A DNA stretch of 11,866 nt, from the NCBI GenBank assembly GCA_937902525.1, contig CALEKV010000081.1, positions 1 through 11,866 on the forward strand, in the 5' to 3' direction. This document shows, piece after piece, positions 1 through 11,866 of the stretch (position 1 is its first letter; the number at the start of each line of letters is the position of its first letter). The DNA comes from an uncultured Candidatus Saccharibacteria bacterium. GTDB taxonomy: Bacteria; Patescibacteriota; Saccharimonadia; Saccharimonadales; Saccharimonadaceae. A model generated the notes under the pieces. It was not told where the DNA came from. It searched no databases and was given only the letters and a program-made list of their open reading frames with translations. A program made the translations under genes and the position numbers.

Positions 1-698
1 GTCATCCAATACAGTACAAGTGTGGCAACCAAAACAGCAAACGTCCAAAAGATCATTAGCCCCACCCCCTCACTCAGTAGGCCAACCGATGTTAAGCCAG
101 AATAAACCAGTGCCACTATCCCAACAGGTACCAGCTGTATAACACCAACAACTGCGACGACAATAGAGGCAGCAATTGGCGCACCCGCGCTATATATACC
201 ATCACGCAAACGCGGCTTGTGACCAGCCATAATGTCACGCAACAACCACACCACGGTGAGCCACAACATGGTCGCTATCAAAGACATGTAAATCTGTTGT
301 TCGGCGCTGATGTCTCCTGGTGAGACAAACGCCGAGACCAGCAGCAACCCCGCTTGGCCAACAGACCCCCAAACCCCCCGGGAGACTTCGCCAGTCGACT
401 GATTAACAAGGTCTGATATCTCTTGGTAGGTTGCCTGGTTTGTTACGCCACCGATTAAAAATATAAATAGCACATACAAAAGTACCAGCAAACTAAATAG
501 TCGCCTGTGTCGCCATAACATCAACCAAACCTTGGCAGTAAAGCTCCAGTAACCTGGCAGCTTTAAGGACCGCACGTAATCACGCCTGCGCGTACGCCTA
601 AAACTGCGGTGCGGACGGCGCATTAAAAACGCAGCATTACGTATTGCCAATGAATCTTTCCAAACTAAAAACCTGAGCCATGGGTGAAAATGCTTCAT
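1..698 (-). CDS. Polytopic membrane protein, C-terminus beyond window
   Basis: An open frame runs from an ATG at 698 to the window edge without a stop, giving 232 visible residues; the C-terminus is missing because the window ends. The first 65 residues are strongly basic (an RRTRRRDYVR stretch near residue 35) and Trp-rich, so this end is probably cytoplasmic. Hydrophobic segments follow at about residues 67-84, 113-126 (weak), 137-154, 175-200 and 212-231, with short polar loops. No enzymatic motif is visible. I do not recognise a named family; the basic N-terminus followed by several helices resembles uncharacterised membrane proteins of Saccharibacteria (recollection, not a search). A TATAAT box at 716-721 lies 17 bases upstream of the ATG, leaving a very short leader with only a weak AGG as ribosome site. 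It is the last gene of a minus-strand series after two tRNA genes. Confidence 0.75.
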   Translation of the reverse strand, partial: MKHFHPWLRFLVWKDSLAIRNAAFLMRRPHRSFRRTRRRDYVRSLKLPGYWSFTAKVWLMLWRHRRLFSLLVLLYVLFIFLIGGVTNQATYQEISDLVNQSTGEVSRGVWGSVGQAGLLLVSAFVSPGDISAEQQIYMSLIATMLWLTVVWLLRDIMAGHKPRLRDGIYSAGAPIAASIVVAVVGVIQLVPVGIVALVYSGLTSVGLLSEGVGLMIFWTFAVLVATLVLYWM

Positions 699-715
699 AT
701 TTTATACCTGTTGTT

Positions 716-721
716 ATTATA
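716..721 (-). promoter_or_regulatory. -10 box of the membrane protein gene
   Basis: A perfect TATAAT is read on the minus strand 17 bases before the ATG at 698. No convincing -35 hexamer is present at 17-base spacing. The implied leader is about 10 nucleotides. Confidence 0.5.
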
Positions 722-789
722 GCAGTGGTTAGCCAAAAAATAATATAGCTGTAAGTGACGTGCGAGTTCGACGCATCACATTCTACCAA

Positions 790-814
790 CTAAAACGCCC
801 AGGCAAGCCTGGAC
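790..814 (-). terminator. Terminator downstream of the tRNA pair
   Basis: Minus-strand RNA folds GTCCAGG-CTTG-CCTGGGC (7 bp, one G-U pair), followed by GTTTTAG, just after the CCA end of tRNA-Leu. A larger outer palindrome (CCAACTAAAA at 785-794 against TTTTAGTTGG at 816-825) pairs the terminator tail with the tRNA 3' end, so the structure is partly symmetric. Confidence 0.6.
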
Positions 815-822
815 ATTTTAGT

Positions 823-908
823 TGGTGCGCAGAGCGGGGGTCGAACCCGCACGTCTTTTGGACAAGGGATTTTAAGTCCCTCGCGTCTACCAGTTCCGCC
901 ATCCGCGC
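823..908 (-). tRNA. tRNA-Leu (anticodon UAA)
   Basis: A full 86-nt cloverleaf is visible on the minus strand. Acceptor arms GCGCGGA and TCTGCGC pair with one G-T. The anticodon stem AGGGA/TCCCT encloses loop CTTAAAA, so the anticodon is UAA. A long variable arm, as expected for a class II leucine tRNA, precedes a T arm with GGTTCGACCCC. Discriminator A and the CCA end are encoded. It is followed by a terminator and preceded 9 bases upstream by tRNA-Cys, so the two are co-transcribed. Confidence 0.95.
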
Positions 909-917
909 AATAAAATA

Positions 918-991
918 TGGAGGCACGTACGGGAGTTGCACCCGTCTACGCGGTTTTGCAGACCGCTGCGTAACTGCTCCGCCAACGCGCC
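918..991 (-). tRNA. tRNA-Cys (anticodon GCA)
   Basis: A 74-nt cloverleaf on the minus strand. Acceptor arms GGCGCGT and ACGTGCC pair. The anticodon stem GCGGT/ACCGC encloses CTGCAAA, giving anticodon GCA. The discriminator base is U, the usual identity element for tRNA-Cys, and CCA is encoded. It is the first gene of the Cys-Leu tRNA unit. Confidence 0.95.
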
Positions 992-1001
992 ATCACGTAT
1001 G

Positions 1002-1007
1002 ATTATA
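1002..1007 (-). promoter_or_regulatory. Promoter of the tRNA unit (extended -10)
   Basis: TATAAT preceded by TGG (TGn type extended -10) lies 10 bases before the 5' end of tRNA-Cys. No clear -35 element is seen at 17 bases. Confidence 0.55.
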
Positions 1008-1093
1008 CCAAATAAAATACAATTATTACCCATAATCTCGCAACGACTGTTCTATTCAGCTAATTATGAAACCATGACGTGGTCGCAGGTAGA

Positions 1094-1585
1094 CTAAGCG
1101 GAAAGTGCGGCCACGTGCTCAATGATGTAACTTCTGGTGTCGTCAATTGATTTGCCAAGCACTATGGCTAGCTCGCCATACAAGGCCTTTTCGGCCTTTT
1201 GGAAATATATTTTATCCTTTTCGCAGCGCTTTTGTCCTTTTCGGGACTTGGCCTCACCGCGAACATAAGCGGTTTTTATAATACAGATTAAGCTCTCGTG
1301 ATTTTCGCTGTTAAATAATCCTTTATAGGTATTTTCAAGTGTGCGCTCATTTGTGTCTGCACACTCAATTGCAGGTATTTTTTTAACTAAATTGTCGATT
1401 TCGGCCTTGGTAAGTAGCGGCCTGAATGTAAGCTTGGGCGAATTGACTGGCGCGTGAATAATTAGCGACGAGTCATAGCAGGGAGCTAATTTGTAATAAT
1501 CACCGTTGCCCCTAAAATTTTGAATTATGTCGCAAATTTTACAGACATTGCGACGATACATGATAATTTGTCCTATTTCTAACAT
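1094..1585 (-). CDS. CarD/CdnL-family RNA polymerase-binding regulator
   Basis: This 163-residue protein has the layout of the shorter CarD-like regulators common in Bacillota. An N-terminal RNAP-interaction (Tudor-like) part (about 1-70) begins MLEIGQIIMYRRNVCKI and includes YYKLAP and the APVNSPKLTFRPLLTKAEID block. A helical C-terminal part (about 75-160) contains the GLFNSENHESLICIIKTAY and AEKALYGELAIVLGKS segments typical of the DNA-contacting half. Family members bind the RNA polymerase beta subunit and stabilise the open promoter complex, often at rRNA and growth genes. I chose the ATG at 1585, not the in-frame start 39 bases upstream, because AAAGGGA sits 4 bases before it and the conserved family N-terminus starts there. 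No terminator is obvious downstream. Confidence in the family is high; the precise regulatory role is inferred. Confidence 0.85.
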   Translation of the reverse strand: MLEIGQIIMYRRNVCKICDIIQNFRGNGDYYKLAPCYDSSLIIHAPVNSPKLTFRPLLTKAEIDNLVKKIPAIECADTNERTLENTYKGLFNSENHESLICIIKTAYVRGEAKSRKGQKRCEKDKIYFQKAEKALYGELAIVLGKSIDDTRSYIIEHVAALSA

Positions 1586-1661
1586 ACGTCCCTTTCGTAC
1601 AAAAAAGAGCCTGCTCCACAACAAGGTTTTCGCCCGGGAACCGCTCTATATCTGTAGTGTA

Positions 1662-1690
1662 ATTATATCACACTTTTAAAATATTTTGTA
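1662..1690 (-). promoter_or_regulatory. Probable promoter of the CarD-like gene
   Basis: TATAAT at 1662-1667 with a poor -35 (TACAAA, 1685-1690) at 17-base spacing. The -10 lies inside a short GTG...CAC dyad. The leader to the ATG is about 70 nt. Confidence 0.5.
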
Positions 1691-1930
1691 GCCAGTGGCA
1701 CACCCAGCAGCCGGCTTGAAAGATTGCATCGCCAAGATCGTTTTTGTCGGGATAGCCCATCGCATAGTCAAGTTTTAACTTTGGTGCACCAATGCGACCT
1801 ATCGTGGAACCAGATTGTCCCTAGCTTGCGATTGATGCAGTCGAAGCTAATCGATTTAGGCTTTGAGTATCATAACGGAAATATTGTTATAAACGAAACG
1901 GAAACTGAGGGGAGCCAGTACTATGCGTAA
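1688..1930 (+). other. Unassigned gene remnant before the PLD pseudogene
   Basis: The plus strand is open here without a credible start. Its stop at 1928-1930 overlaps the ATG of the PLD pseudogene (1923), and a GGGGAG ribosome site precedes that ATG, so the two look like an old translationally coupled pair. The C-terminal part reads like protein (LIDLGFEYHNGNIVINE); the front half does not. A 17-base exact match to the dispersed repeat of this window (GTTTTAACTTTGGTGCA, 1772-1788) sits in it, which suggests the gene was disrupted. I do not recognise a family. The minus strand also has a 50-codon open frame here, which I do not trust. Confidence 0.3.
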
Positions 1931-2384
1931 TCCTTTTGTTAGGTCGCGGCCGTTTAGTTACGATAGCACGGCACTCTATGACCAAAACACGTTTTATGCG
2001 GCGTTAGACCGTGATTTAAGCCGTTGCCAGGGTGAAGACCGCGGACCGCATGAACGTGCTCCTACCCATTTTTGAGAAAATGCGCAAGCGTAATGTAAGA
2101 ATCATCATCAACACGAGCAATCCCATCGAACACGACGGCGATTATATTCAGCAAGCTCAGAAATCGATACTAATATTGCAAAATATGGGAGTTAAGGTTT
2201 TGTACACTACTAAGCACCACAGAAAGCTAGTTATTATTGATCGTCGCATAAGTTACGAAGGAAGTCTGAATATACTATCCTTTACTAACAGTTGTGAAAC
2301 AATAAGGAGGATTTTGTGTCTGATGTGATCACAAATGATTTATATAACTACTTGGGCTTGCACAGGATAATCGTAGCTATGTAA
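1923..2384 (+). pseudogene. Phospholipase D-like (HKD) domain protein, frameshifted
   Basis: Three frames together give one recognisable PLD-like domain. Frame one (from 1923) reads MRNPFVRSRPFSYDS, then the LYDQNTFYAALDRDLSRC segment. After about 2025 it shifts into frame two (about 2032-2315), MNVLLPIFEKMRKRNVRIIINT up to the HKD motif HRKLVIID and YEGSLNIL. At about 2316 it shifts again to SDVITNDLYNYLGL and stops at 2384. Around the first shift the expected short stretch between DLSRC and the MNVLLP helix is mostly missing, so this is a small deletion plus frameshift rather than one sequencing error. Proteins of this type use HxKxxxxD motifs for phosphodiester hydrolysis and are often attached to nucleic-acid enzymes. 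The HKD motif survives, but no single frame encodes the whole domain. Confidence 0.75.
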
Positions 2385-2414
2385 ATACTTGCCTCAGCCC
2401 TCTGGCGATGACAC

Positions 2415-2440
2415 AAAAAACACCCAATTAGGCGTTTTTT
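2415..2440 (-). terminator. Rho-independent terminator after the JAB-E1 unit
   Basis: In minus-strand RNA AAAAAACGCC pairs with GGTGTTTTTT around a 6-nt loop (10 bp, one G-U). On the plus strand that position would be an A-C mismatch, so the minus reading is favoured. It lies 121 bases beyond the E1-like stop and may also serve the convergent pseudogene side. Confidence 0.65.
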
Positions 2441-2519
2441 GCATAGTAATAATATCTATCACGATCGATTCGCTGTCTACAGCTCATCAGCACGACTATT
2501 GTCATTCGTGGTCGGTCGC

Positions 2520-2555
2520 GGGGACCCTGCAGACATGTCAGCCCGCAGGGTCCCC
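2520..2555. repeat. Perfect 11-bp inverted repeat next to the E1-like stop
   Basis: GGGGACCCTGC (2520-2530) and GCAGGGTCCCC (2545-2555) are exact inverse complements around a 14-base loop that contains the palindrome GACATGTC. It starts 6 bases after the E1-like stop codon and marks the point where composition changes from AT-rich to GC-rich. No T-run follows on either side, so it may stabilise the mRNA 3' end or be a boundary scar. Confidence 0.6.
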
Positions 2556-2561
2556 AGTTGT

Positions 2562-3302
2562 TCACTCCTCGATGTCACCAATGAGGGTAACCTCTCCAGT
2601 CTCACCATCCCAGTTCATGAGACGGCAGATTGGCAGTCCCCTGGACCAGCGCGACAGATGGCGGCACATGAAGCCGGCCATGACAGTCGCAGGGTACACG
2701 ATGGCACGCATCGTGCAGGTGATCCCGGTCGTCGCCTCGCTGTCGTCGAACAGCCAGTCGGCCTCGTACCAGTCGCCGTCGAGCGGTTCGATGGCAAAAA
2801 TCTGGGCGGTCTGGCCGCCCAGTCGTCCATCGAGGTAGAGCTCGACATCCGGCGAGTTGGTGACTGCCTCCCAGATGATCTTGCGGGACCTCATTGAGTC
2901 GACGGCACCGATGACGATGGCGCCTTCGATGATGTCTTTGGCAGTGAAGAGACGCTGGCGAACCAGCACCTCGACGGCGCCGTACTCGATGAGTACTTCC
3001 GCGAGCGCCTCCACCTTGGGACGGTAGAGGTCGCGATGGCGGAACGCCTTCTGAGAGGCGAGGTTCCGCGGCTCGACGTCGTCATCGTCGTACAGCACGA
3101 AGCGCTTGAAGCCCATCGTGATGAGCTCGAACGCCACGTTGCTGCCGATGCCGCCGCACCCGATGATGGTGACGGGTGAGGTCGCCTTGTCGGGATCGAA
3201 CCAGCCGGTCTGATCGGCCCAGTCCGGTGCGTTCTGGTGAACGGCCGCGTAGAGCATGCCATCTTCGGTGTCGGTGACGGTCAGGGTGAAGGGGTCGGTC
3301 AT
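2562..3302 (-). CDS. E1-like / ThiF-family Ubl-activating enzyme
   Basis: A 246-residue ThiF/HesA/MoeB-type adenylating enzyme. The Rossmann nucleotide loop VTIIGCGGIGSN spans residues 44-55. The acidic turn YDDDDVEPRNLASQ (71-84) supplies the Asp, Arg-Asn and Gln positions typical of E1 adenylation sites, followed by RPKVEAL with Lys96 and GAVDSMRSR with Asp135. A late TTGITCTMRA segment carries Cys196, the best candidate for the thioester Cys. No CxxC zinc pairs, second catalytic domain or C-terminal ubiquitin-fold domain are seen, so it is a minimal E1. By family it would adenylate the C-terminal Gly of the neighbouring Ubl and form a thioester. The ATG at 3302 overlaps the stop of the JAB gene (ATGA) and has AAAGGA 7 bases upstream. 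It is strongly GC-rich. A ThiF role in sulfur-carrier chemistry is the main alternative. Confidence 0.88.
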   Translation of the reverse strand: MTDPFTLTVTDTEDGMLYAAVHQNAPDWADQTGWFDPDKATSPVTIIGCGGIGSNVAFELITMGFKRFVLYDDDDVEPRNLASQKAFRHRDLYRPKVEALAEVLIEYGAVEVLVRQRLFTAKDIIEGAIVIGAVDSMRSRKIIWEAVTNSPDVELYLDGRLGGQTAQIFAIEPLDGDWYEADWLFDDSEATTGITCTMRAIVYPATVMAGFMCRHLSRWSRGLPICRLMNWDGETGEVTLIGDIEE

Positions 3303-3982
3303 CGGAAATCCTTTCGTGTGCTGTCGTAGGGGTCGTCGTATTCGGGGTCGTCATCCCATGTACCCATGGCGAATCCTGCCTGAGCAGGATTGTAGCGGGA
3401 GCTGGGCGGCCGCTTGATGGGGATGACGCTGCACTTGGTGGCGATCTGGGCTTTGTAGGGCGCCAGGTCGACGTCCGGGACGTCGTCAACCACCAGAAGT
3501 TCGGCTTGGGTGCCGATGCGGTACGGGCGGTAGACCTCGAAGTTGAGCGTGGCTTGCCCGCGGTTGTTGATGACCATGAAGAACATGGCATCAAGTGCGG
3601 TCGCCCGGCCGATGTCATGGTGCGACTTGAGGTCGGTTGTCGAGAATGAGGCAGTACCACCGACGTGGCTGTGCCACAGGATTCGGTATACGTTCTCATT
3701 CGCGTCGAACTGCTCCTCGTAGTCCATGACTGCGACCTCACCGGCAGGATCGGTCCGAGCGGTGCCCGGTGCGACGTGCTGATCGACGATGAAGACGGAG
3801 CCTGGAATGACCCAGAACTGCTCGGTGTCGAGCTGACGCGCGAACGCGTAGCCACACACCTCGTTCTTGCCGGCTGCTACGGCGTAGCGTACCATCTCGT
3901 CGAACTCTGCTCGATCGATGATGAGCCGCGGTGCGCTGGACAGTGCCAACGGACGGCACAGAGTGGTGTACTTCTTTGACAC
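3299..3982 (-). CDS. JAB/JAMM metallopeptidase (Ubl isopeptidase-like)
   Basis: A 227-residue protein with a complete JAMM zinc site: Glu41 in NEVCGYAF, then WHSHVGGTASFSTTD giving His104, His106, Ser114 and Asp117 in the exact HxH-x7-S-x2-D spacing. The MPN core spans about residues 18-155; a tail of about 70 residues ends in an acidic stretch (WDDDPEYDDPYD). JAMM enzymes remove ubiquitin or Ubl from targets, or trim Ubl precursors. Because the neighbouring Ubl already ends in Gly, deconjugation is the more likely job. The start is a GTG at 3982, chosen because AAAGGGG lies 5 bases before it and the MPN fold begins soon after. It heads a two-gene unit with the E1-like gene and has its own promoter near 4064-4092. 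Confidence 0.9.
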   Translation of the reverse strand: MSKKYTTLCRPLALSSAPRLIIDRAEFDEMVRYAVAAGKNEVCGYAFARQLDTEQFWVIPGSVFIVDQHVAPGTARTDPAGEVAVMDYEEQFDANENVYRILWHSHVGGTASFSTTDLKSHHDIGRATALDAMFFMVINNRGQATLNFEVYRPYRIGTQAELLVVDDVPDVDLAPYKAQIATKCSVIPIKRPPSSRYNPAQAGFAMGTWDDDPEYDDPYDSTRKDFR

Positions 3983-4063
3983 GGGGTCCCCTTTCTGGGA
4001 GGGTTGACGTGGAGTGAAAGAGCGTGTTGATCGTTACGAAAACGAGACGATTGACACCTTATA

Positions 4064-4092
4064 ATTATAGCACAAACAATAAAAAAAGTCAA
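4064..4092 (-). promoter_or_regulatory. Promoter of the JAB-E1 unit
   Basis: Minus-strand TTGACT (4087-4092), 17-base T-rich spacer, perfect TATAAT (4064-4069). The predicted start near 4057 gives a leader of about 75 nt before the GTG at 3982. Confidence 0.8.
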
Positions 4093-4107
4093 TGTATATA
4101 CATTGAC
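4088..4107. promoter_or_regulatory. 20-bp perfect palindrome over the -35 box (candidate operator)
   Basis: GTCAATGTATATACATTGAC is a perfect 20-base palindrome. It contains the first five bases of the -35 hexamer of the JAB-E1 promoter, so a dimeric regulator bound here would block RNA polymerase. No matching palindrome is seen at the Ubl or E2-like promoters. Confidence 0.6.
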
Positions 4108-4109
4108 GA

Positions 4110-4165
4110 AATACGAAAATGATGCGGGGGCCGCCGCACACGCTTGCGCGCGCACGACGACCCCC
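4110..4165 (-). terminator. Long hairpin with GCAA tetraloop, probable terminator
   Basis: In minus-strand RNA an 18-bp stem (arms 4148-4165 and 4126-4143) closes a GCAA (GNRA) tetraloop. Five of the pairs are G-U and would be mismatches on the plus strand, which shows that the minus RNA is the functional one. The downstream tail GCATCATTTTCG has only a short T-run, so termination may be partial. It sits 244 bases after the Ubl stop and 18 bases before the JAB-E1 operator palindrome. Confidence 0.65.
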
Positions 4166-4409
4166 AACCACGAACTCTCGCAGGCCTCCGGTTTCTCATC
4201 TTAGGATAAGGTGGAGAATCCGACAGTGGACGGACCGGCCTCGGGTGTACATTATATCTAGCATAGTAATGCCAGATGACACCTAAGCGACGCCGTTTCG
4301 ATGCCGACTTTAGCGAGATCACAGCGTTTGGAGTGGAGACAACCCGAGGGTCGCTACGACACACGCATGTGATTTACTACTCTACAGGGGTTCGTGGAAC
4401 TCGGTGTCC
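4166..4409 (-). other. Non-coding gap between Ubl gene and hairpin, with a lone -10 box
   Basis: I see no supported protein gene here. A perfect TATAAT on the minus strand (4251-4256) would start RNA near 4244 and, with the hairpin at 4126-4165, define a transcript of about 130 nt. There is no matching -35 box. A 36-codon basic open frame (starting MRNRRPARVRGWG) lies inside, without a ribosome site. A small RNA or a long Ubl 3' UTR are both possible. Confidence 0.3.
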
Positions 4410-4643
4410 TCAGCCCAGGTTGGGCTTCGGGACGGCGTCTACCTTGGTGGCGCCCTCGACGGGCGCCTCCGGCTGCACCTGGGTGCCGTCGACGAGGATG
4501 GCGACGCCGATCGGCGCGGGGATGCCGAGCGCGTCGGCGGCCTCGGCGAGGACCTCGGCGGCGGTGGCGCCCTGGTTGAGCTCGACGTCGACGCGCCCCT
4601 TGACGCCGCTGATGCGGACGGAGACGGTGTTCTTCGCGGTCAT
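4410..4643 (-). CDS. Ubiquitin-like beta-grasp protein (C-terminal Gly)
   Basis: A 77-residue protein with the beta-grasp order. Strands lie at about 5-12 (NTVSVRIS) and 16-23 (GRVDVELN), a helix at 26-40 (ATAAEVLAEAADALG), further strands at 46-57 (GVAILVDGTQVQ) and a last strand at 65-71. A flexible tail VPKPNLG ends exactly on a Gly, as in ubiquitin, ThiS, MoaD and bacterial Ubls. A single terminal Gly and no residues after it mean it needs no processing. Lysines at 4, 15, 67 and 73 could accept chains. The start is the ATG at 4643, with a perfect AGGAGG 7 bases upstream; the in-frame extension to 4706 lacks a ribosome site. It has its own consensus promoter and is flanked by hairpins on both sides, so it forms a single-gene unit that can be made in excess. 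ThiS/MoaD-like sulfur carriage is the alternative, but the E2-like and JAB neighbours argue for conjugation. Confidence 0.85.
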   Translation of the reverse strand: MTAKNTVSVRISGVKGRVDVELNQGATAAEVLAEAADALGIPAPIGVAILVDGTQVQPEAPVEGATKVDAVPKPNLG

Positions 4644-4719
4644 TGTGAACCTCCTGGTTCGTGGGTTGGGATGTACGACTCGTGAGTTGGGTTCCAGCCT
4701 CATCACATGTCAGTTACGC

Positions 4720-4748
4720 ATTATATATCAAATCTTATATTTTGTCAA
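4720..4748 (-). promoter_or_regulatory. Consensus promoter of the Ubl gene
   Basis: Minus-strand TTGACA (4743-4748), exactly 17 bases, then TATAAT (4720-4725): a perfect sigma-70 type consensus at both hexamers, the strongest promoter in the window. The leader is about 70 nt and ends in AGGAGG. Confidence 0.9.
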
Positions 4749-4802
4749 CACAATTTACAAATAATCTCATAATTATCTGGATGTGACAAATTACGGGAAA
4801 TG

Positions 4803-4837
4803 AAAAGGGGCGCATACGAACATGTCGTATACGCCCC
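4803..4837 (-). terminator. Rho-independent terminator after the E2-like gene
   Basis: Minus-strand GGGGCGTATACGA pairs fully with TCGTATGCGCCCC (13 bp with one U-G) around a 5-nt loop and is followed by TTTTC. On the plus strand the U-G would be a C-A mismatch. It starts 20 bases after the E2-like stop and separates that gene from the Ubl promoter. Confidence 0.85.
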
Positions 4838-4856
4838 AAGGGCTTGCTCCTTTCTT

Positions 4857-6290
4857 CTACGCGGTCTTGAGTGCGGTTGCACCGACCGCCACCTGGGTGG
4901 CGCGACGTCGCCTGGGACGCGTCGGAAGCTTGCGCTGCCAGACGTTATCCATGGCAATCTCGGCGAACTGTCCTTCCTCGATGAGGTACTCGTGGCCTGC
5001 GCTCAGGGAATTCATGATCCCGATGGCGATGTTGACGCAGTGACCGAAGTCGCCGCGTCGGTAGGCATCGAGGATCTCGACAATACTCGTCCTGCCGAAG
5101 CAGAAGCGATTCGCATCTGGATGCCACCCCTGGTTGTATGAACCACCAGCAGGGCATCGCGTCCGACGAACCTTCATGGTCGTGCCGAAGTAGGCATCCT
5201 CCGTTCGGAGGTACAGCTCGAAGTCGCCGAGGTCGTACCGCTTGCCGTCGTGAACGACGCTGTTGCGGACGTGGAGTACTGGTATGCCGTCACCATCGAA
5301 CTTGATGGCGATGACGCCGGGCAGAGTCGAGATGTACTCGAGAATCTGCCGAGCAACGGCCTGGTCGCCTTCCTTGTTCGCGTTGGCGCGAGCCCGCTGA
5401 AGCGTCTCGAGCTGTGACTTGTAGTCGCGCAGTTGGGCACGCGCATGACGGAGCTGATCGTTGTCCGCGGTCTTGTACCGTTCGTACTCACGGATCGTCG
5501 ACTTGACGTTCCTGATCTGGCGATCGACACTATCGGCGCCTCCACACTTCTGGAGTGCTTTGAGTGCCTTGACGGGATCGGTGACGTACCCAGACCAAGG
5601 CATGTCGTCTGCGTGCGTGTCCGGTGGGTCCATCTCGTCATCACGCATGTTGGCGCGGATCAGCTCTGAGAGCTTCTCGGCGATGTGCGCGATGATCGAG
5701 GCGATGTCACCGGCCGCAAACTGCTCGGTCAGAACGTGCGGATGCTGCGTCTGGTAGTAAGCTACGGTGAGCTCTCCAATCCTGTGGGTATTCGTCCAGT
5801 ACTGACGACGGAACGCATTGTAGGCGCGAGTGATGTCCTGGCCGACGATGTAGATGCGACCATTGACGAAGTACTCGTACCCAACCTCGATCCACCCGAT
5901 GCTCTGACCCTCGGGGCTGAGCGGAGCAGTATCGATGAGAACGGCGAGTTCACCGGCACGACCGACACGCGTGCCAGCGACATACGGCAGTGCGATGAGC
6001 GCGTCGTACCTCTGCTGGAGCTCGGCGTCGGTGAGGCGGGGTCGGTTCTCGAGCTCAGTGAGCATGGTCTTGAGCCGCTTGAGCTCAGCGGTGTCGTCCT
6101 TGATCTCTCGGGTGTAGGTCTCGACAGCCCGTTCCTCGTCGCGGATGAGACCCTGAAGCCTGCCCAGCTCGTCGTTGCCTTCGTGCCGGGCGTGCCACTC
6201 CAAGTACTTCATCCACTTGGGAAGCAGGTCGTTGTCCGACTGCGTCCAGGTGGGGTTGGGTAGGATGCACGTGGTACCGGGTGTGGGCAT
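4857..6290 (-). CDS. Coiled-coil protein with tandem E2/UBC-like modules
   Basis: A 477-residue protein with two similar halves. Each half has a charged coiled coil (about 45-85 and 255-305), then a strand-rich block starting ALPYVAG (about 100) or TLPGVIA (322), and finally an HP-containing segment followed by two helices. The second half has GWHPDANRFCFG (388-399) with Cys397 placed like the E2 active Cys in the HPN...CxG pattern, then a helix SIVEILDAYRRGDFG. The first half has QHPHVLTE (His183-Pro184-His185) and FAAGDIASIIAHIAEKL but no Cys, so it looks like a pseudo-E2. A very basic RPRRRR stretch lies near the C-terminus. The ATG at 6290 has AAAGGAGGG 4 bases upstream and beats the TTG at 6323. 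By context it would carry the Ubl as a thioester. The E2 assignment rests on pattern and neighbours and is less certain than E1 and JAB. Confidence 0.7.
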   Translation of the reverse strand: MPTPGTTCILPNPTWTQSDNDLLPKWMKYLEWHARHEGNDELGRLQGLIRDEERAVETYTREIKDDTAELKRLKTMLTELENRPRLTDAELQQRYDALIALPYVAGTRVGRAGELAVLIDTAPLSPEGQSIGWIEVGYEYFVNGRIYIVGQDITRAYNAFRRQYWTNTHRIGELTVAYYQTQHPHVLTEQFAAGDIASIIAHIAEKLSELIRANMRDDEMDPPDTHADDMPWSGYVTDPVKALKALQKCGGADSVDRQIRNVKSTIREYERYKTADNDQLRHARAQLRDYKSQLETLQRARANANKEGDQAVARQILEYISTLPGVIAIKFDGDGIPVLHVRNSVVHDGKRYDLGDFELYLRTEDAYFGTTMKVRRTRCPAGGSYNQGWHPDANRFCFGRTSIVEILDAYRRGDFGHCVNIAIGIMNSLSAGHEYLIEEGQFAEIAMDNVWQRKLPTRPRRRRATQVAVGATALKTA

Positions 6291-6332
6291 GAGCCCTCCT
6301 TTGGGTGTAGAAGATGAAGTCAAGTTGCGCCA

Positions 6333-6356
6333 CGCCCCAACGCCAGTTGAGGGGCG
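6333..6356 (-). other. Hairpin in the leader of the E2-like gene
   Basis: CGCCCC (6333-6338) and GGGGCG (6351-6356) pair, with an inner AAC/GTT extension. It lies in the 5' leader between the promoter and the ribosome site. A regulatory role is only a possibility. Confidence 0.35.
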
Positions 6357-6373
6357 GAGACGCGGATAAATAT

Positions 6374-6402
6374 ATTATAGCATGAGTAGTGAAAAAATAC
6401 AA
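6374..6402 (-). promoter_or_regulatory. Promoter of the E2-like gene
   Basis: Perfect TATAAT (6374-6379) with a weak TTGTAT -35 (6397-6402) at 17-base spacing, in an AT-rich gap. The leader to the ATG at 6290 is about 77 nt. Confidence 0.65.
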
Positions 6403-6575
6403 TATGCGATGCGTTGGACAAGGTTTTTTTGGGGCAGATAAAAGGACTTGGCCACGTTCCGCGACCCCCGGATTTCACGATTTAAAGCACAGCTTTTATC
6501 GAAAATTCCGTTTCCGAACTGCCACTGGCAGTTTTCACCTCCACGCCCGGGTGGAGATTCAAATCTCAAAACAAT

Positions 6576-6698
6576 ACCAAAATTGAAACCCAGGCATAAA
6601 ACCTGGGTTTTAACTTTGGTGCAATTTTACACTTTCGCGCGAACCCAGTTCCAGCGGAATTGTGAGTGAGTCGCGCCGCCTGTGCGGGCAAGCCCGAC
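6576..6698 (+). repeat. Dispersed palindromic repeat, copy A
   Basis: The element starts with an inverted repeat (6576-6594 against 6602-6620, 19 bases with two mismatches, CCAGG/CCTGG core). It continues with GTGCAATTTTACACTTTCGCGC, the core complement AACCCAGTTCCAGCGGA, and ends with a CGGGC/GCCCG hairpin. It stops 2 bases from the stop codon of the ThrRS-like gene and may act as that gene's terminator. Copies B and C in opposite orientation share the core. The rest of the gap from 6403 to 6575 has small dyads (ACTGCC/GGCAGT near 6520) and no gene I can support. Confidence 0.85.
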
Positions 6699-6700
6699 AC

Positions 6701-8032
6701 TTACAACTGCCTACTTATTTCAACAACCCACTCACGCCTAATGAACGGTTTGCCACTCATTTCTTTGGCAAGGTTCTTGGCAAGTTTTTTGAGTTCCTTG
6801 CAGCCGTCATCAATCTCTTGCTGACCGATAACAACTTTATGCGGTACAAAGTCTTGGTGAGCTCTTTTGAGTTTTGAGGACACGCTTATACTTCTGTCAT
6901 CAATTTCAATGCGTAGTGGTAAATCTGACAGTTCTCTGACAAGTGCCTGGCACTTTTCTACAAACTCACCGCCAACAGAGATAAGACGAATATGGACAGG
7001 ATTGAGCCATAGCGGTAAACCTTGCTCAAAGTTGTCAAACAAAATATACAAGTAGCGTTCAATACCGCCTGGAATTGCCGAGTGAATGATGACGGGATGT
7101 TTTGCGTTGCCGTCCTCGTCAATATAGTGAATGTTGAGACGTGGCGCATTGCCAATATCTACTTGAATACAGCCAATCTCGCGCGACTGTCCGAGTTTGT
7201 CAATTATCTTGTAGTCAACATTAACCACCCAGTAACGGTCTTGACCGTCCTCTATGATATTCACCAGAACATCAGCGCCAAGTGAAACGGGTATTTCCTC
7301 GATGTAATGCCTGTATTCTTGCCAAACTTTTTCAGACGGCACTTCTATCACTACCTGATATTCTCGCCTTGCCTCTTTGCCAGCTTCTACGATTTTAGCT
7401 TGCAGTTTAGGAAACCACGCAAACGCTTCGGCTGCGTCCTTGAAGTACGGGTGTATATCGGGCATATAGAACCGTCTTTGACGCATGAGCAACATCATCT
7501 CGCCGCTTTGTTCATGGCGGTAACAATCCGACAACGAAAAATGGGCAAACGGCAATTGCTTATGGCTGAGTGGCGACTTGGAAGCCAAGTTAAACTGCGG
7601 ATAACTCGCGTCATAACTCATCACTACATCTGATTTACCCGATTTGAACCGATACAACCTATCGCCAAACAGTGAAGCATACGCTTCAACAACAGGGTGT
7701 TGCAAACTAAACATATTTGCGCCGCTTACTTCGTAAACAGGCAAACCCAGCTCATGCACAAGTTGTCTTGCGTAATCTTGCACAAGTCGCCTCATAAAGT
7801 TTGCTTTGTAGTTGTACTGAACATGACCAATATCTGCGTTTGGCTCCCAGTTAAAGCCCAATTTGCTGGCATATGCCAGATATTCAGGTTTGTTGTTTGA
7901 CTGCCCAACCAGTATTTCACCTAGCGCTTCGCGCTTCACGAAGTCGGCAAACTGCTTGCTAATTTTGGGTATTTTTAAGTAGTCATTGATTTCAATAACT
8001 TGTTTTTCTTGATTTAGTACAAAATATTTCAT
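6701..8032 (-). CDS. Threonyl-tRNA synthetase-like protein, short form
   Basis: A 443-residue class II synthetase most like the ThrRS core. Motif 2 is visible as CYRHEQSGE (Arg172, Glu174). The zinc-site region retains His194 (DIHPYF) and His317 (VIIHSA), and motif 3 is GGIERYLYIL (Arg326). The C-terminal anticodon-binding domain starts LPLWLNPVHIRLISV near 339. Usual bacterial ThrRS has about 640 residues; the TGS and editing (HxxxH) domains are absent here, replaced by about 75 unassigned N-terminal residues. The zinc Cys of the NCPGH motif is not present; the aligned stretch reads DASYPQF. I start at the ATG at 8032 because GGAG lies 6 bases before it; the ATG at 8044 has no ribosome site. 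The threonine attenuator upstream supports Thr-related function. It could charge tRNA-Thr, be a resistant paralogue, or be a non-charging relative. Confidence 0.82.
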   Translation of the reverse strand: MKYFVLNQEKQVIEINDYLKIPKISKQFADFVKREALGEILVGQSNNKPEYLAYASKLGFNWEPNADIGHVQYNYKANFMRRLVQDYARQLVHELGLPVYEVSGANMFSLQHPVVEAYASLFGDRLYRFKSGKSDVVMSYDASYPQFNLASKSPLSHKQLPFAHFSLSDCYRHEQSGEMMLLMRQRRFYMPDIHPYFKDAAEAFAWFPKLQAKIVEAGKEARREYQVVIEVPSEKVWQEYRHYIEEIPVSLGADVLVNIIEDGQDRYWVVNVDYKIIDKLGQSREIGCIQVDIGNAPRLNIHYIDEDGNAKHPVIIHSAIPGGIERYLYILFDNFEQGLPLWLNPVHIRLISVGGEFVEKCQALVRELSDLPLRIEIDDRSISVSSKLKRAHQDFVPHKVVIGQQEIDDGCKELKKLAKNLAKEMSGKPFIRREWVVEISRQL

Positions 8033-8100
8033 AGAGAACTCCATTAAAAATTAGGTTTATGCCCCTGATTTTCGTCCTAAATGGAGTTGTCGTTCCGAGA

Positions 8101-8176
8101 TAAACAAAAACTCCCGCCGTCGGGAGTTTTCTTAATCAATAGCAAGCCCGACGGTCTAAGACAACACCGTCGTCGT
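8101..8176 (-). promoter_or_regulatory. Threonine transcription attenuator (leader hairpins 1-4)
   Basis: Minus-strand leader RNA offers three mutually exclusive hairpins. 1:2 is CGACGGT (8166-8172) with ACCGTCG (8149-8155), 7 bp. 2:3 is CCGTCGGG (8147-8154) with CCCGACGG (8117-8124), 8 bp. 3:4 is AAAACTCCCG with CGGGAGTTTT (about 8107-8130), 10 bp, followed by TTTTTG, a rho-independent terminator. The three Thr codons of the leader peptide lie at 8168-8176, over strand 1, and its stop (8156-8158) is directly before strand 2. A ribosome stalled at Thr codons would free strand 2 to form 2:3 and allow read-through; one that reaches the stop would mask strand 2 and let 3:4 terminate. Confidence 0.85.
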
Positions 8177-8206
8177 TATCTGGTTTGGCTTGATTGATTT
8201 AACCAT
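8156..8206 (-). CDS. Threonine leader peptide of the ThrRS-like gene
   Basis: A 16-codon open frame, MVKSIKPNQITTTVLS, runs from the ATG at 8206 to TAG at 8156-8158. Codons 10-13 read Ile-Thr-Thr-Thr (ATA ACG ACG ACG), the control-codon cluster expected of a thr-type leader. It lies between the promoter and the terminator hairpin that precede the ThrRS-like gene. There is no ribosome site. The ATG is 6 bases after the TATAAT box, so it would sit at or very near the RNA 5' end and be read leaderlessly. Too short for usual gene finding; support comes from codon content and exact register with the hairpins. Confidence 0.8.
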   Translation of the reverse strand: MVKSIKPNQITTTVLS

Positions 8207-8212
8207 ACATTT

Positions 8213-8241
8213 ATTATAGCACACTTAAATGATTAACGCAA
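8213..8241 (-). promoter_or_regulatory. Promoter of the leader peptide / ThrRS-like gene
   Basis: TATAAT (8213-8218) with TTGCGT (8236-8241) at 17-base spacing on the minus strand. The distance of 6 bases from the -10 to the leader ATG implies a leaderless start. Confidence 0.75.
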
Positions 8242-8257
8242 GCGTTTTGCTGGTGGG

Positions 8258-8328
8258 ACGCGTGCGGCTTACTCACAGTTCCGCTGGAACTGGGTTAGCG
8301 CGAAAGTGTAAATTGCACCAAAGTTAAA
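8258..8328 (-). repeat. Dispersed palindromic repeat, copy B
   Basis: Shares with copy A, in inverted orientation, TCCGCTGGAACTGGGTT, GCGCGAAAGTGTAAA, TTGCACCAAAGTTAAA and the ACTCAC stretch. The distal palindrome arm is missing, so it is a truncated copy. With copy A it brackets the ThrRS-like gene and its whole control region. Confidence 0.8.
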
Positions 8329-8441
8329 TGAGATTCCGGTAAACTGATGATTACTGCACTGAGTGTGGCAATGTGCGCGGTGTTGGTAAAGATAGTAAGC
8401 CGCAGGTAGTATTTGTGGCCTATAAAATTCTTCACAAGCTC

Positions 8442-8447
8442 TATAAT
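8442..8447 (+). promoter_or_regulatory. -10 box, leaderless arrangement (DUF1801 gene)
   Basis: TATAAT followed by 6 bases and the ATG at 8454. No ribosome site precedes the ATG and no good -35 is seen. Confidence 0.65.
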
Positions 8448-8453
8448 TAAGAT

Positions 8454-8789
8454 ATGAAAAATAGCACAGTTGACGAATACATACAGAAACAGCCGGCGCC
8501 GCAGCAAGAAATTTGCCAGAAGTTACGGCAGTTAGTGTTTGAGACGTTTCCAAATATAGCGGAAGAAATGAAGTGGGGCGTGCCTACCTATGACGGCGGG
8601 CAGTACTACATTGTCGCCCTTAAAGATCACGTTAACTTAGGTTTTTCGCTGAATGGTTTAAGTAAAGATGAGTATGCATTATTTGATGGTGGCGGTAAGA
8701 CCATGCGGCATGTTGTAGCGACGTCGGCTACTTTCACTTGCTCACAAAAAAGCGAATCGTTGTTTCCATTTTGTCTGTGTCGGGGGTGA
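8454..8789 (+). CDS. DUF1801 (YdhG-like) protein, 3' end replaced
   Basis: Residues 1-87 match the DUF1801 pattern: VDEYIQKQPAPQQEICQKLRQL, then AEEMKWGVPTYDG, HVNLGFSLNG and GGGKTMRHV. These small proteins share a fold with the frataxin-like YdhG group; their function is not settled. After about 8714 the family pattern stops, and the last 24 residues are read through the antisense of the 3' end of the convergent GyrI-like gene (overlap 8734-8789). The usual closing segment after MRHI is absent, so a deletion probably fused the gene end to its neighbour. The product may be non-functional. The start is the ATG 6 bases after TATAAT, consistent with leaderless expression. Confidence 0.7.
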   Translation: MKNSTVDEYIQKQPAPQQEICQKLRQLVFETFPNIAEEMKWGVPTYDGGQYYIVALKDHVNLGFSLNGLSKDEYALFDGGGKTMRHVVATSATFTCSQKSESLFPFCLCRG

Positions 8790-9351
8790 ACTTTAAATAG
8801 ATTTCCCGGTGCTTTTTCCCGATTCTTTTATAGCCGTTGTCAGCTATAAACTTTTCCATCGCTTGGAAGGTGGTCTGAAATTCCGTATCATAAGAACCTT
8901 TGTGCAGCATTTGAACACACAGGCCGTCCTCTATTTCTTCAAGCTTCACTTCACCAAGCAGCAGGTTTTTATTTTTGACATTTAACTCAAGGGCCTTTTC
9001 AAACACTGCTTCGTCAACAAAATCCGGCTGACGTATCATTATTTTGTACTGCAAAAAGTCTTTGCTAAACTCTTTCGCCTTTTTGCCCTTAGCCGATATG
9101 TCCCATATACCCTCAAGCGGGTAAACAGTGTACTCAACATATCCCTTTGGGGTAACCCCCGCCTTTGGCATCATTTTGACAGTGTATGCTAATTTGTAAA
9201 GTGTTTTTACCCGTGCTTGAAAATCTTTGTTGTTATTTGGGTTGCCTTTGCCCTCTATGGTAAAGAACTTAATTTTTGGCACTTGCACGATAACCGGCTC
9301 TGCTTTTGGCAGATACAATTCCTCTTCCTGCTTTCTCCACTCGTACTTCAT
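8734..9351 (-). CDS. GyrI-like small-molecule-binding domain protein
   Basis: A 205-residue stand-alone GyrI-like protein. Recognisable blocks are MKYEWRKQEEELYLPKAEP at the start, FFTIEGKGNPN (about 30-40), YTVYPLEGIWDIS (about 78-90), IMIRQPDFV and CVQMLHKGSYD (about 145-155), and HREIYL near the end. Members bind cationic or hydrophobic small molecules in the fold shared with the ligand domains of BmrR-type regulators; here there is no DNA-binding domain, so it may sequester or hydrolyse small molecules. The ATG at 9351 is preferred over the one at 9366 because family proteins begin MKYEW and a TATAAT box ends 6 bases before it, again without a ribosome site. The 3' end overlaps the truncated DUF1801 gene on the other strand. 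Confidence 0.82.
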   Translation of the reverse strand: MKYEWRKQEEELYLPKAEPVIVQVPKIKFFTIEGKGNPNNNKDFQARVKTLYKLAYTVKMMPKAGVTPKGYVEYTVYPLEGIWDISAKGKKAKEFSKDFLQYKIMIRQPDFVDEAVFEKALELNVKNKNLLLGEVKLEEIEDGLCVQMLHKGSYDTEFQTTFQAMEKFIADNGYKRIGKKHREIYLKFTPDTDKMETTIRFFVSK

Positions 9352-9357
9352 AGAGGT

Positions 9358-9363
9358 ATTATA
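9358..9363 (-). promoter_or_regulatory. -10 box, leaderless arrangement (GyrI-like gene)
   Basis: TATAAT on the minus strand, 6 bases before the ATG at 9351. It lies inside the upstream in-frame extension, which argues against the earlier start. Confidence 0.65.
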
Positions 9364-9496
9364 CAACTTTTGCAGGGTGCTCTACCTGTGACGTGGTATA
9401 TGAAAGAATTGTTTTGCTGTAGTGACAGGTTTTGACATAATTTTTTTGCATAGTCATCACATATTGTAAACAATCTGCAAACAGGGGCGAATCTGC

Positions 9497-9502
9497 TATA
9501 AT
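9497..9502 (+). promoter_or_regulatory. -10 box before the hydrolase remnant
   Basis: TATAAT 7 bases before the ATG at 9510. It may now drive the Nudix gene downstream. Confidence 0.6.
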
Positions 9503-9509
9503 TACGCTT

Positions 9510-9578
9510 ATGAAACGAGTCGTAGTTGTTCACTGTTGGGGCGGTAGTGGTAGCAATATGTCGCTTAAATGGAATTAG
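9510..9578 (+). pseudogene. N-terminal stump of an RBBP9/YdeN-type alpha/beta hydrolase
   Basis: The 22-codon frame begins MKRVVVVHCWGGS, the start of RBBP9/YdeN-like serine hydrolases (strand, then H-x-W-G-G-S oxyanion region), and then loses similarity and stops at 9578. The catalytic Ser, Asp and His of the family lie further on and are absent. The promoter box is intact. The break lies just before the Nudix gene at 9598, so a deletion probably joined the two. Confidence 0.65.
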
Positions 9579-9585
9579 CAGGGGT

Positions 9586-9591
9586 TATAGA
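9586..9591 (+). promoter_or_regulatory. Possible -10 box, leaderless arrangement (Nudix gene)
   Basis: TATAGA followed by 6 bases and the ATG at 9598. It is weaker than the other boxes but has identical spacing. Confidence 0.4.
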
Positions 9592-9597
9592 AAATAT

Positions 9598-10116
9598 ATG
9601 AAAAATATTCTCACAATTTACGAACAGGACATCTTCCCAGAGGCGCCAATTGTCGATACCGCTGGTTTTAGCAGGCGTGAAGCCGCGCGTGCGGTGGTAT
9701 ATGACGATGCTGGTAAGATTGCATTGTTGCGGGCAGGGCTCCACAGCTACCACAAGTTACCTGGTGGCGGTATAGACGAGGGGGAAGACGTACCGACTGC
9801 ACTCGGCCGAGAACTATTAGAGGAAATTGGCTGTAGAGCAGAAGTAACTGGCGAAGTTGGTAAGATTATTGAATACAGGGATCAATTTCAGCTAGAGCAA
9901 ATATCTTACTGTTTTATTGCTCAGCAAGTTGGCGAAAAAGGCGAACCCAATTTTACTGAAAGAGAGCTTCAAGATGAATTTTCAATAGTTTGGGTTGATG
10001 ATATTGACCATGCTATCGCGCTGCTTAAACAAGACAAGCCCGCCGATTACGGGAGTCGGTTTATACAAAAACGCGACCTGGCCATATTGAAGGCAGCAAA
10101 AGAACACGCGGTCTAG
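9598..10116 (+). CDS. Nudix hydrolase
   Basis: A 172-residue Nudix protein. The Nudix box is complete at residues 57-79: G-x5-E (Glu63), x7, then Arg71-Glu72, Glu75-Glu76 and Gly78, in the segment GIDEGEDVPTALG plus RELLEEIGC. The preceding strand ends YHKLPGG, the usual lead-in. Nudix enzymes hydrolyse a nucleoside diphosphate linked to another group with Mg2+ at the box glutamates; the substrate cannot be read from the sequence. I chose the ATG at 9598 because the 24 codons upstream in frame overlap the hydrolase remnant and show no family similarity. No ribosome site is present; a TATAGA box 6 bases upstream suggests leaderless expression. The nearby methyltransferase fusion carries a second, different Nudix domain. 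Confidence 0.85.
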   Translation: MKNILTIYEQDIFPEAPIVDTAGFSRREAARAVVYDDAGKIALLRAGLHSYHKLPGGGIDEGEDVPTALGRELLEEIGCRAEVTGEVGKIIEYRDQFQLEQISYCFIAQQVGEKGEPNFTERELQDEFSIVWVDDIDHAIALLKQDKPADYGSRFIQKRDLAILKAAKEHAV

Positions 10117-10174
10117 TAGCTTGCAAACAACTACCACAGCTGTTTGTGCCTATCAGTTAGAGTTCTCTTTATGG

Positions 10175-10224
10175 CACCAAATAAAAAAGGCCAAGAAGGC
10201 CCATTCTATTTGGTGGAATTTTAC
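10175..10224 (+). repeat. Palindromic repeat fragment (copy D)
   Basis: CACCAAATA (10175-10183) and TATTTGGTG (10207-10215) are inverted, with inner GGCC/GGCC. The right arm continues GAATTTTAC, so TTGGTGGAATTTTAC is shared exactly with copy C. It lies after the Nudix stop and may act as terminator. The gap 10117-10421 otherwise holds the elements listed next and no gene I can support. Confidence 0.55.
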
Positions 10225-10270
10225 GACTCCGCTAGAACCTATTTTGAGGAAAAATGCTGAATTACACAAG

Positions 10271-10316
10271 CCCCGCCGTGATTTTTTAGAAAAGGAAAAG
10301 GGCGCTTCTGGTCGGG
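10271..10316 (+). repeat. Left arm of inverted repeat around the methyltransferase-Nudix gene
   Basis: This 46-base stretch, from CCCCGCCGTGATTTTTT to TTCTGGTCGGG, matches the inverse complement of 11587-11633 at 39 of 46 positions by hand alignment. Confidence 0.8.
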
Positions 10317-10320
10317 TCGC

Positions 10321-10385
10321 GTTTCGGCAAAAGCCGAAACAGGCGGCGTGGCTCTGGTCGGCAAAGCCGACACGCTTCGCAAGCG
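10321..10385. repeat. Three consecutive small hairpins
   Basis: GTTTCGGC-AAAA-GCCGAAAC (10321-10340), GTCGGC-AAA-GCCGAC (10357-10371) and CGCTT-CGC-AAGCG (10373-10385) follow each other. All have short loops and no T-run. They look like repeat-derived structure between the left repeat arm and the promoter. Confidence 0.6.
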
Positions 10386-10392
10386 AAACGTA

Positions 10393-10415
10393 AACAGATG
10401 AAAATCTGTTATAAT
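10393..10415 (+). promoter_or_regulatory. Promoter with overlapping inverted repeat (methyltransferase-Nudix)
   Basis: AACAGAT-GAAA-ATCTGTT (10393-10410) is a perfect 7-bp inverted repeat whose last base is the first base of the TATAAT box (10410-10415). The ATG at 10422 is 6 bases after the box, a leaderless arrangement. The dyad could be an operator. Confidence 0.6.
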
Positions 10416-10421
10416 TCAGGT

Positions 10422-11564: not shown

Positions 11565-11586
11565 CAACGGCGTAGCCGTTAAAAGG

Positions 11587-11633
11587 CCCGACCAGAAACA
11601 CCCTTTTCCAAATTAAAAAAATCACGGCGGGGG
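11587..11633 (-). repeat. Right arm of inverted repeat around the methyltransferase-Nudix gene
   Basis: Inverse complement of the left arm at 10271-10316 with 39 of 46 matches. It begins 22 bases after the gene's stop; a small AACGGC/GCCGTT hairpin lies between. Confidence 0.8.
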
Positions 11634-11671
11634 AAGTTTCAAAAAATATGCAAAGAGTTTTTCTGGGCGGG

Positions 11672-11808: not shown

Positions 11809-11866
11809 AACCCTCCAGGTCCCTTTGAAGTAGGACACTAGCCAGAAAGGCTGGTGTATATGAAGC

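Follow-up and report, generated by a model that had tools for sequence, protein, structure and literature searches.

Can a member of the Saccharimonadia attach a ubiquitin-like protein to its targets, and take it off again, with a set of only four genes? This question is raised by a locus in an 11,866-nucleotide stretch of DNA from an uncultured Candidatus Saccharibacteria bacterium (assembly GCA_937902525.1, contig CALEKV010000081.1, positions 1 to 11,866 of the forward strand; the whole stretch is hereafter the window). Between 2562 and 6290 it carries a cassette of four minus-strand genes, encoding in transcription order an E2-like protein (E2), a ubiquitin-like protein (Ubl), a JAB metalloprotease and an E1-like adenylyltransferase (E1). 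A preliminary description had placed all four on a single strand of this interval, as we find them, and had proposed that the set conjugates the Ubl and removes it again. With support from an E2 profile, conserved cysteines and recurrence in 17 genomes, this is still the best-supported reading of the sequences, and we put the probability that the cassette is a reversible ubiquitin-like protein conjugation system at roughly 0.83.

Pfam recognises ThiF and Prok-JAB over cut-off, leaves the Ubl below cut-off and assigns no E2 family to the E2-like protein. The E1 (ThiF, 2.9e-22) has a single ThiF domain with a GxGGxG loop, and Cys196, which the preliminary description had singled out together with the nucleotide loop, is invariant in 32/32 rows of the E1 alignment (A2); G50, N80, K96, D135, R160 and C196 are kept in 24/24 patescibacterial and 80/80 viral E1s compared. 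A profile search of the PDB with the E1 returned UBA7, MccB, ThiF, UBA1, the NEDD8 E1, BubCD and others. There were 125 E1 homologues, 120 of them listed; two of 13 plasmid matches were inspected and set aside, one being a thiamine operon (H4) and the other a ThiF gene with an MFS transporter gene as its neighbour (H7). The protease (Prok-JAB, 1e-8) carries the JAMM residues already noted, namely Glu41 and the HxH-x7-S-x2-D motif (H104-S-H106, S114-x2-D117), and the E, HSH, S and D columns are conserved in 16/16 aligned JABs; these 16 were selected by the HxH..S..D pattern, so that the conservation of the Glu alone is an independent observation.

The Ubl, preceded by AGGAGG upstream of its ATG at 4643, is 77 amino acids long and ends exactly in Gly (KPNLG), as first described. 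Its Pfam matches, Ub-Mut7C (0.0095) and ThiS (0.012), are below cut-off, and its AlphaFold model is one beta-grasp with a predicted local distance difference test score (pLDDT) of 80. A Foldseek search with this model places ubiquitin-type beta-grasps in the top rows (parkin Ubl, Caldiarchaeum ubiquitin and ubiquitin, probability 1.00; four rows at E <= 0.001). Met1 and the terminal Gly are the only invariant residues of the Ubl alignment (A5), which omits P0165, a sequence from a 520-base contig with a C-terminal part unlike the family. Among the 17 genomes that carry the E1 (see below), the Ubl ends in NG in 14, in LG in one and in NG plus one residue in two; the background for an NG ending is 29 of 2937 open reading frames (ORFs) of 60-150 amino acids, the Ubls themselves included. 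Since one Ubl profile drew part of its sequences (10) and the other all of them (16) from this set of loci, the E-values of these members are not independent.

Homologue starts favour the ATG at 6290 for the E2-like protein, giving 477 amino acids. Its N-terminal half (~22-215) consists of a coiled coil and a UBC-like part without Cys, and its C-terminal half (~309-430) of a second coiled coil and a UBC domain with Cys397, the motif Cys of the window protein being confined to the C-terminal module; the protein appears to be a fusion of an E2-like half lacking the Cys with an active E2. In the AlphaFold2 model (pLDDT 85, predicted template modelling score 0.56), one module, made up of a long helix, a short helix, strands and helices, is present in two copies, and hhalign gives 96.1% between the two halves and 97.9% between the N-terminal half and a broad E2-domain profile, with the coiled coil contributing part of both scores. 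H390 and C397 are invariant in the 22 rows of an alignment of the window with 21 relatives (A1, which leaves out the 97% identical P0001), and C397 in 23/23 rows of the close-family alignment A6, compiled without locus L147, whose E2 has no Cys at that position. A graded active-site series leads from WHPDANRFCFG in the window through HPHVDKHGNACLG (L142) to HPHVSMSGQPCWG (L021), with similar forms in viruses, and the broad motif across phage and other patescibacterial relatives is HPH..G..C[LW]G.

Support for the E2-like HP...CxG segment of the preliminary description comes from a broad profile of 26 sequences including the window (A7), searched against 177,635 PDB sequences. The first two of its 23 rows are chains of L3A2-1 (3.4e-5, 3.6e-5) and the next 13, completing the first 15, are named Ubiquitin-conjugating enzyme E2 L3 (5.2e-5 to 0.008), with E2 L6 (0.18) and E2 15 (1.2) further down among unrelated rows; the L3A2-1 chains are the two for which an alignment was printed (HPNIDEKGQVCL), and in each of them HP and Cys are aligned to the profile. 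It is with this broad profile only that the E2/UBC superfamily is reached, through E2 L3-type chains with the catalytic Cys aligned. A 40-sequence E2 profile, to which L131 was added by hand, gave 84.1% and 91.6% by direction (scores 36.3 and 41.3) in hhalign against four human E2s, and 30/30 column-shuffled controls scored 5.8 or less.

In the genome context, the set is more than a chance assembly because it recurs. We sampled 392 genomes from the class to which the Saccharibacteria genome with L001 (G001) belongs, with an E1 profile threshold of 1e-20, and found the E1 in 17/392. All 17 carriers have an E2, 15 by the close profile and two (L147, L148) by a wider one, all 17 have a Ubl with terminal or subterminal Gly, and 15 have a JAB. 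The genes are linked in 16 carriers, and in G001 they are split over two apparent contig ends (L001/L134, L083). The order E2-JAB-E1-Ubl occurs in 11 carriers; the order of the window, E2-Ubl-JAB-E1, occurs in L120 and L121 and is compatible with G001; two carriers without JAB have E2-E1-Ubl, and L126 has JAB-E1-Ubl-E2. One genome (G149) contains two separate Ubl/E2/JAB/E1 sets (L129, L149) about 3 kb apart. A phylum-level sample held the E1 in 6/379 genomes, G001 among them: L142, L144 and L145 have E2, JAB and E1 with a Ubl-like match, L143 has E2 and E1, and L146 has E1 only. The Ubl-like matches of L142 (3885-4496) and L145 (3642-4691) lie within longer proteins, and that of L142 possibly comprises two Ubl-like units and terminates in a short stretch with a Cys. 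What is generally expected of Ubl conjugation, namely a linked and Gly-ended Ubl, an E1 and an E2 with conserved Cys, and a JAB, is found across the carriers, the exceptions being JAB in two of 17 and the E2 Cys in one.

Several observations weigh against this reading. The pieces for the broad E2 profiles were cut around the C.G motif, which is there by construction, and L147 was omitted from them. The close E2 family alone scores 0.2% against E2s in hhalign, no E2 is among the 60 PDB rows shown for the A6 profile, and no Pfam E2 family is among the 25 listed for its 23 members; in the 26 members of A7, UQ_con matches two (best 0.014), Prok-E2_D one (0.029) and Prok-E2_B one (0.1), none significantly. 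As to the UBC fold at stake in the preliminary description, the order of helices and strands in the model of the 477-residue protein fits UBC, but the Foldseek and VIA rows for the whole model are dominated by the coiled coil, with no E2 among them. The E2 Cys is missing in one genome (G295, the source of L147), and the HP histidine H390 is lost in the majority of the distant Saccharimonadia E2s. Two carriers, G312 and G096, have no JAB near the cassette genes, and no E3 or defence gene was recognised in the window. Finally, Cys196 alone is no proof of conjugation because a Cys occupies this position in Salmonella ThiF as well.

Searches with the E2 otherwise gave little. Single-sequence searches of Pfam, PADLOC, PHROGs and NCBIfam returned just weak coiled-coil-type matches, and tblastn against plasmids and phages returned no match. 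An IMG/VR scan with E2 patterns yielded 25 stretches and no relative, the patterns being too specific (viral E2s were found later through the E1). The sole organism name available for the 22 E2 homologues is Candidatus Saccharimonas sp., and a precomputed Pfam accession (PF27605) on three close relatives shows that, at the least, the family has been catalogued. A Chloroflexi candidate (L002; 3e-5 relative to the candidate stretches) was judged a chance match, its locus being without an E1, JAB or Ubl match, and a PF14461 search of 101 Chloroflexi genomes is uninformative, as it gave no match there or in any of the 14 controls.

From the families, the conserved residues and the recurrent gene linkage we infer each chemical step of the following cycle, as well as its substrate and role. 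The JAB would trim a Ubl precursor wherever a tail exists, the Ubl of the window having none and ending in Gly. The E1, single-domain and presumably homodimeric, would adenylate the C-terminal Gly of the Ubl using ATP and take it over as a thioester on Cys196, from which it would be handed to Cys397 of the E2 domain, with the Cys-less N-terminal half and the coiled coils probably acting as a scaffold for E1, Ubl or target. The Ubl would then be transferred to an amine of the target, no E3 having been recognised close by, and the JAB would cleave the conjugates. Together, the four proteins would cover all the catalytic functions that a minimal Ubl cycle needs. We would tentatively regard a conditional role, in stress or against phages, as most likely, because the distribution is sparse, the composition is foreign in the window and relatives occur in phages.

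How does the cassette compare with known systems? Operons combining Ubl, E1, E2 and JAB in bacteria were predicted by Iyer et al. 2006 (PMC1779556), and the BilABCD system, as summarised in a review (PMC11354881), is likewise a four-part set of Ubl, E2, JAB and E1. According to the same summary (PMC11354881), BilA is a two-domain Ubl, BilD has an inactive and an active adenylation domain plus a Cys domain and the Bil E2 has a CEHH motif. The cassette has a 77-residue, one-beta-grasp Ubl, an E1 of 246 amino acids with neither an inactive adenylation half nor a Cys domain of its own, and an HP...C motif with no CEHH among the conserved columns after C397. The cassette E2 differs further by its Cys-less E2-like half, and the PADLOC BilD model matches the cassette E1 over residues 42-145 only (1.8e-5). 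Type 6d of Iyer et al. (Ub-like, JAB, E1-like, E2-like and an alpha-helical protein) shares stand-alone Ubl, JAB, E1 and E2 genes with the cassette, but is described there with this fifth protein and with an E2 in which the classical His is missing and the Cys is followed by a His (PMC1779556). Type II CBASS (cyclic oligonucleotide-based antiphage signalling) and 6A-MBL have an E2-E1 fusion, accompanied by a CD-NTase or by JAB and MBL, where the cassette has separate genes; the 6A-MBL model gives 47.5 of 320 bits, and no CD-NTase or MBL family was found by Pfam among the 10 window proteins scanned. The PRTRC set, which we take to be type 6d under its later name, is set apart by the PRTRC_ThiF model (31.7 bits, cut-off 144.75). 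The resemblance to Bub is a match of the E1 profile to Citrobacter BubCD (1.7e-9), which is a fused 458-residue chain with its E1-like part from about residue 189, unlike the separate E1 of the cassette. Bub systems use oxyester chemistry and a serine protease.

By the features tested, the layout matches neither Bil nor PRTRC, as had been claimed at the outset, and the cassette departs in at least one tested feature from each of Bil, PRTRC, type II CBASS/6A-MBL and Bub. Among the papers listed by searches of the open-access PMC literature, none describes a system of this kind from Saccharibacteria or from phages.

Related sets are also carried by phages. Around the E1s of the best 80 of 178 confirmed IMG/VR loci, which were fetched through the E1, a JAB lies within 5 kb in 70, an E2 in 42, a Ubl in 23 (threshold 0.01) and all three in 16 (L003, L004, L005, L006, L007, L010, L013, L014, L015, L016, L018, L019, L022, L035, L056, L058); these counts include many near-copies, leaving fewer independent cases, and some of the training sequences of the E2 profile came from the very same loci. 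Four of the 42 E2 matches are without the PH..C.G pattern. Like the cassette, the complete sets comprise the four families as stand-alone genes and an E1 with Cys196; they differ in gene order, in their HPH..G..C[WL]G motif and in their Ubls, in most of which GG or AG is followed by a short tail. All 16 of these Ubls have a Gly within the last four residues (RGG, KGGIH, IGGD, EGGE, KGGR and others), and the four of 23 viral Ubl matches that have no Gly near the C-terminus are all outside the complete sets. In the crAss-like phage cr111_1 (L150, 3664-5669), an E1 relative annotated as 'thiamine biosynthesis protein' adjoins a metalloprotease-domain protein; the same E1 matches 77 phage records, and crAss-like phages of Bacteroides stand out in the 30 listed.

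In an E1 tree, which omits L135/L136, 20 rows from the Candidate Phyla Radiation (CPR) form one clade (100/99) without viral rows, the window's own group (window, L083, L120, L121, L128) is supported at 100/97, and L142, L144 and L145 stand apart from the main CPR clade. Support is low where CPR and viral rows meet (59/79 at the deepest fork, 89/86 left open). When 17 E2s were examined for hydropathy, 10 proved to have a strongly hydrophobic segment, with a 19-residue mean above 2.7; each of these 10 belongs to the 12 E2s that are not in the window's group, and the segments suggest that they are membrane-anchored. The related kits in some other Saccharimonadia and in large phages suggest a little-explored branch of bacterial ubiquitination. 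We give about even odds to the broader proposition that Patescibacteria and large phages share an undescribed, fully stand-alone Ubl conjugation lineage, built of a minimal single-domain E1, a Cys-less/active tandem or membrane-anchored E2, a JAB and a Ubl ending in NG or LG, and that the phages themselves tag host proteins.

Two alternatives to conjugation have to be weighed. With a ThiS/MoaD-like Ubl, a ThiF/MoeB-like E1 and a JAB that trims the carrier, the genes could serve sulfur-carrier or thiocarboxylate biosynthesis: the E1 also scores to ThiF/MoeB models, below their cut-offs, the Ubl has SAMP1 and a mycobacterial molybdopterin synthase chain among its structural neighbours, and ThiS-E1-JAB sulfur operons figure among those described by Iyer et al. 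(PMC1779556). We nevertheless regard this as very improbable, given the E2 in every carrier genome and a Pfam scan of 10 window proteins that found no rhodanese, sulfur or cofactor family. Classical sulfur pathways are disfavoured because ThiG and MoaE are each over cut-off in 0/17 of the carrier relatives of the window that were searched (one sub-cut-off ThiG match, 2.0e-4, in G312), as against 13/14 and 11/14 controls, respectively. Where the preliminary description had allowed for a protein without UBC fold, a sulfur-carrier Ubl and an unconserved JAB, we find a profile-supported E2 domain and a JAB in 15 of 17 carriers. A shade less probable still is a coiled-coil scaffold whose HP..C segment is coincidental and which is no E2. 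The missing Pfam E2 match and the fold-search rows without an E2 would fit such a scaffold, but not the Cys kept in all rows of A6, the motif series grading into HPHV..G..CLG in L142 and viruses, or the E2 L3-type PDB chains with their aligned Cys.

Other explanations concern the use and origin of the genes. Anti-phage defence by a separate lineage, functionally like Bil or type II CBASS, would be a role within the conjugation reading and does not compete with it; it is a tentative possibility, somewhat short of even. It draws on the sparse distribution, on the GC content of the cassette (59.6% vs 44.9% in the flanks; at third codon positions, 0.76-0.97 vs 0.41-0.52 in six neighbouring genes) and on the naming of Bil and CBASS as anti-phage pathways in an EMBO J paper that speaks of 544 identified Bub operons (PMC13373217). 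The same paper presents Bub operons without demonstrated protection (PMC13373217), no defence gene was recognised beside the cassette, the relatives' neighbours resemble ordinary chromosomal genes when judged by eye, and several other loci have GC differences of 0.02 or less. It is also conceivable, if unlikely, that the genes derive from phages and are co-opted or decaying in the host, the main home of the system being large phages that modify host proteins. The viral loci described above and a best viral E1 match of 39% identity point that way; the CPR clade free of viral rows with its weak join to them, the three further patescibacterial E1s elsewhere in the tree and a Pfam scan in which no phage gene was recognised in the window point the other way.

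If the conjugation reading is true, bacteria with genomes of 0.7-1.3 Mb, the range of the carriers, hold a complete E1-E2-Ubl-JAB cascade, and the single-domain E1 would allow a minimal ubiquitination cascade to be rebuilt from four small proteins. The phage-borne sets raise the questions of whether phages tag host proteins with a Ubl modifier of their own and whether this machinery is exchanged between bacteria and phages.

Table 1. Positions of cassette genes, candidate catalytic codons and putative expression signals in the window.
Feature	Position	Strand	Remark
E2-like protein, 477 aa (amino acids)	4857..6290	-	ATG start at 6290
Ubl, 77 aa, C-terminus ...VDAVPKPNLG	4410..4643	-	ATG start at 4643
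JAB/JAMM metalloprotease, 227 aa, GTG start; E41, H104, H106, S114, D117	3299..3982	-	
E1-like ThiF-fold adenylyltransferase, 246 aa	2562..3302	-	ATG start at 3302
E2 candidate catalytic Cys397 codon	5100..5102	-	conserved column
E2 His390 codon	5121-5123	-	
E1 Cys196 codon	2715-2717	-	
Ubl-gene promoter-like site, TTGACA-17-TATAAT, 12/12 sigma-70-type consensus	4720..4748	-	consensus scan
JAB-E1 promoter-like site, TTGACT-17-TATAAT with TG, 11/12 consensus	4064..4092	-	consensus scan
Terminator-like hairpin downstream of E2 gene	4807..4837	-	consensus scan
Terminator-like hairpin, 19 pairs, between Ubl and JAB-E1	4125..4166	-	consensus scan
Possible -10 of E2 gene, TGCTATAAT on minus strand	6373..6378	-	sequence inspection

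The cassette had been presented as a complete locus (Table 1). Its four genes are indeed adjacent on one strand, and those for JAB and E1 overlap by four bases (ATGA, the E1 start over the JAB stop), but the notion of one operon is weakened by promoter and hairpin consensus matches: because promoter-like sites and hairpins separate E2, Ubl and JAB-E1, these probably form three adjacent transcription units. The two best-scoring promoter-like sites lie directly upstream of Ubl and of JAB-E1, and the hairpins 3' of E2 and 3' of Ubl have T-rich tails and each precede one of these sites. A simple consensus scan counted seven promoter-like sites vs a mean of 1.5 in shuffles, and eight terminator-like sites vs 3.1. 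At the possible -10 of the E2 gene the scan called no promoter on the minus strand; in a repeat comparison, this stretch and the one with the promoter-like site of JAB-E1 are 73% alike.

As for the host, a probable CPR bacterium had been suspected, and the window looks like Saccharimonadia: those E1 and E2 relatives that come with an organism name are called Saccharimonas or Saccharibacteria, and the neighbouring synthetase-like gene (6701-8044) closely matches two genomes of the class. Close matches are in G035 (61%) and G032 (81% over residues 4-225), and the others in the rows shown are 22-36% identical and may be another synthetase. Neither genome is among the E1/E2 profile matches, so both appear to be without the set; no clean empty site was found in them, the gene order being different. 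In G032, the counterpart of the window's tRNA pair (75% identical) lies on the same contig as the synthetase-like gene, about 8 kb away. The product of 6701-8044 is a 447-residue class II synthetase-like protein with an anticodon-binding domain, shorter than most matched frames of class genomes (roughly 600 residues). Between the tRNA pair and the cassette, short ORFs at 1923-2328 resemble pieces of a phospholipase D-like gene. A 111-nucleotide dispersed intergenic repeat occurs on the right side of the window (6586-6696, 8264-8312, 11679-11789), as an inverted pair with 83% identity and a partial third copy, and the product of 10398-11564 is a methyltransferase-NUDIX fusion protein.

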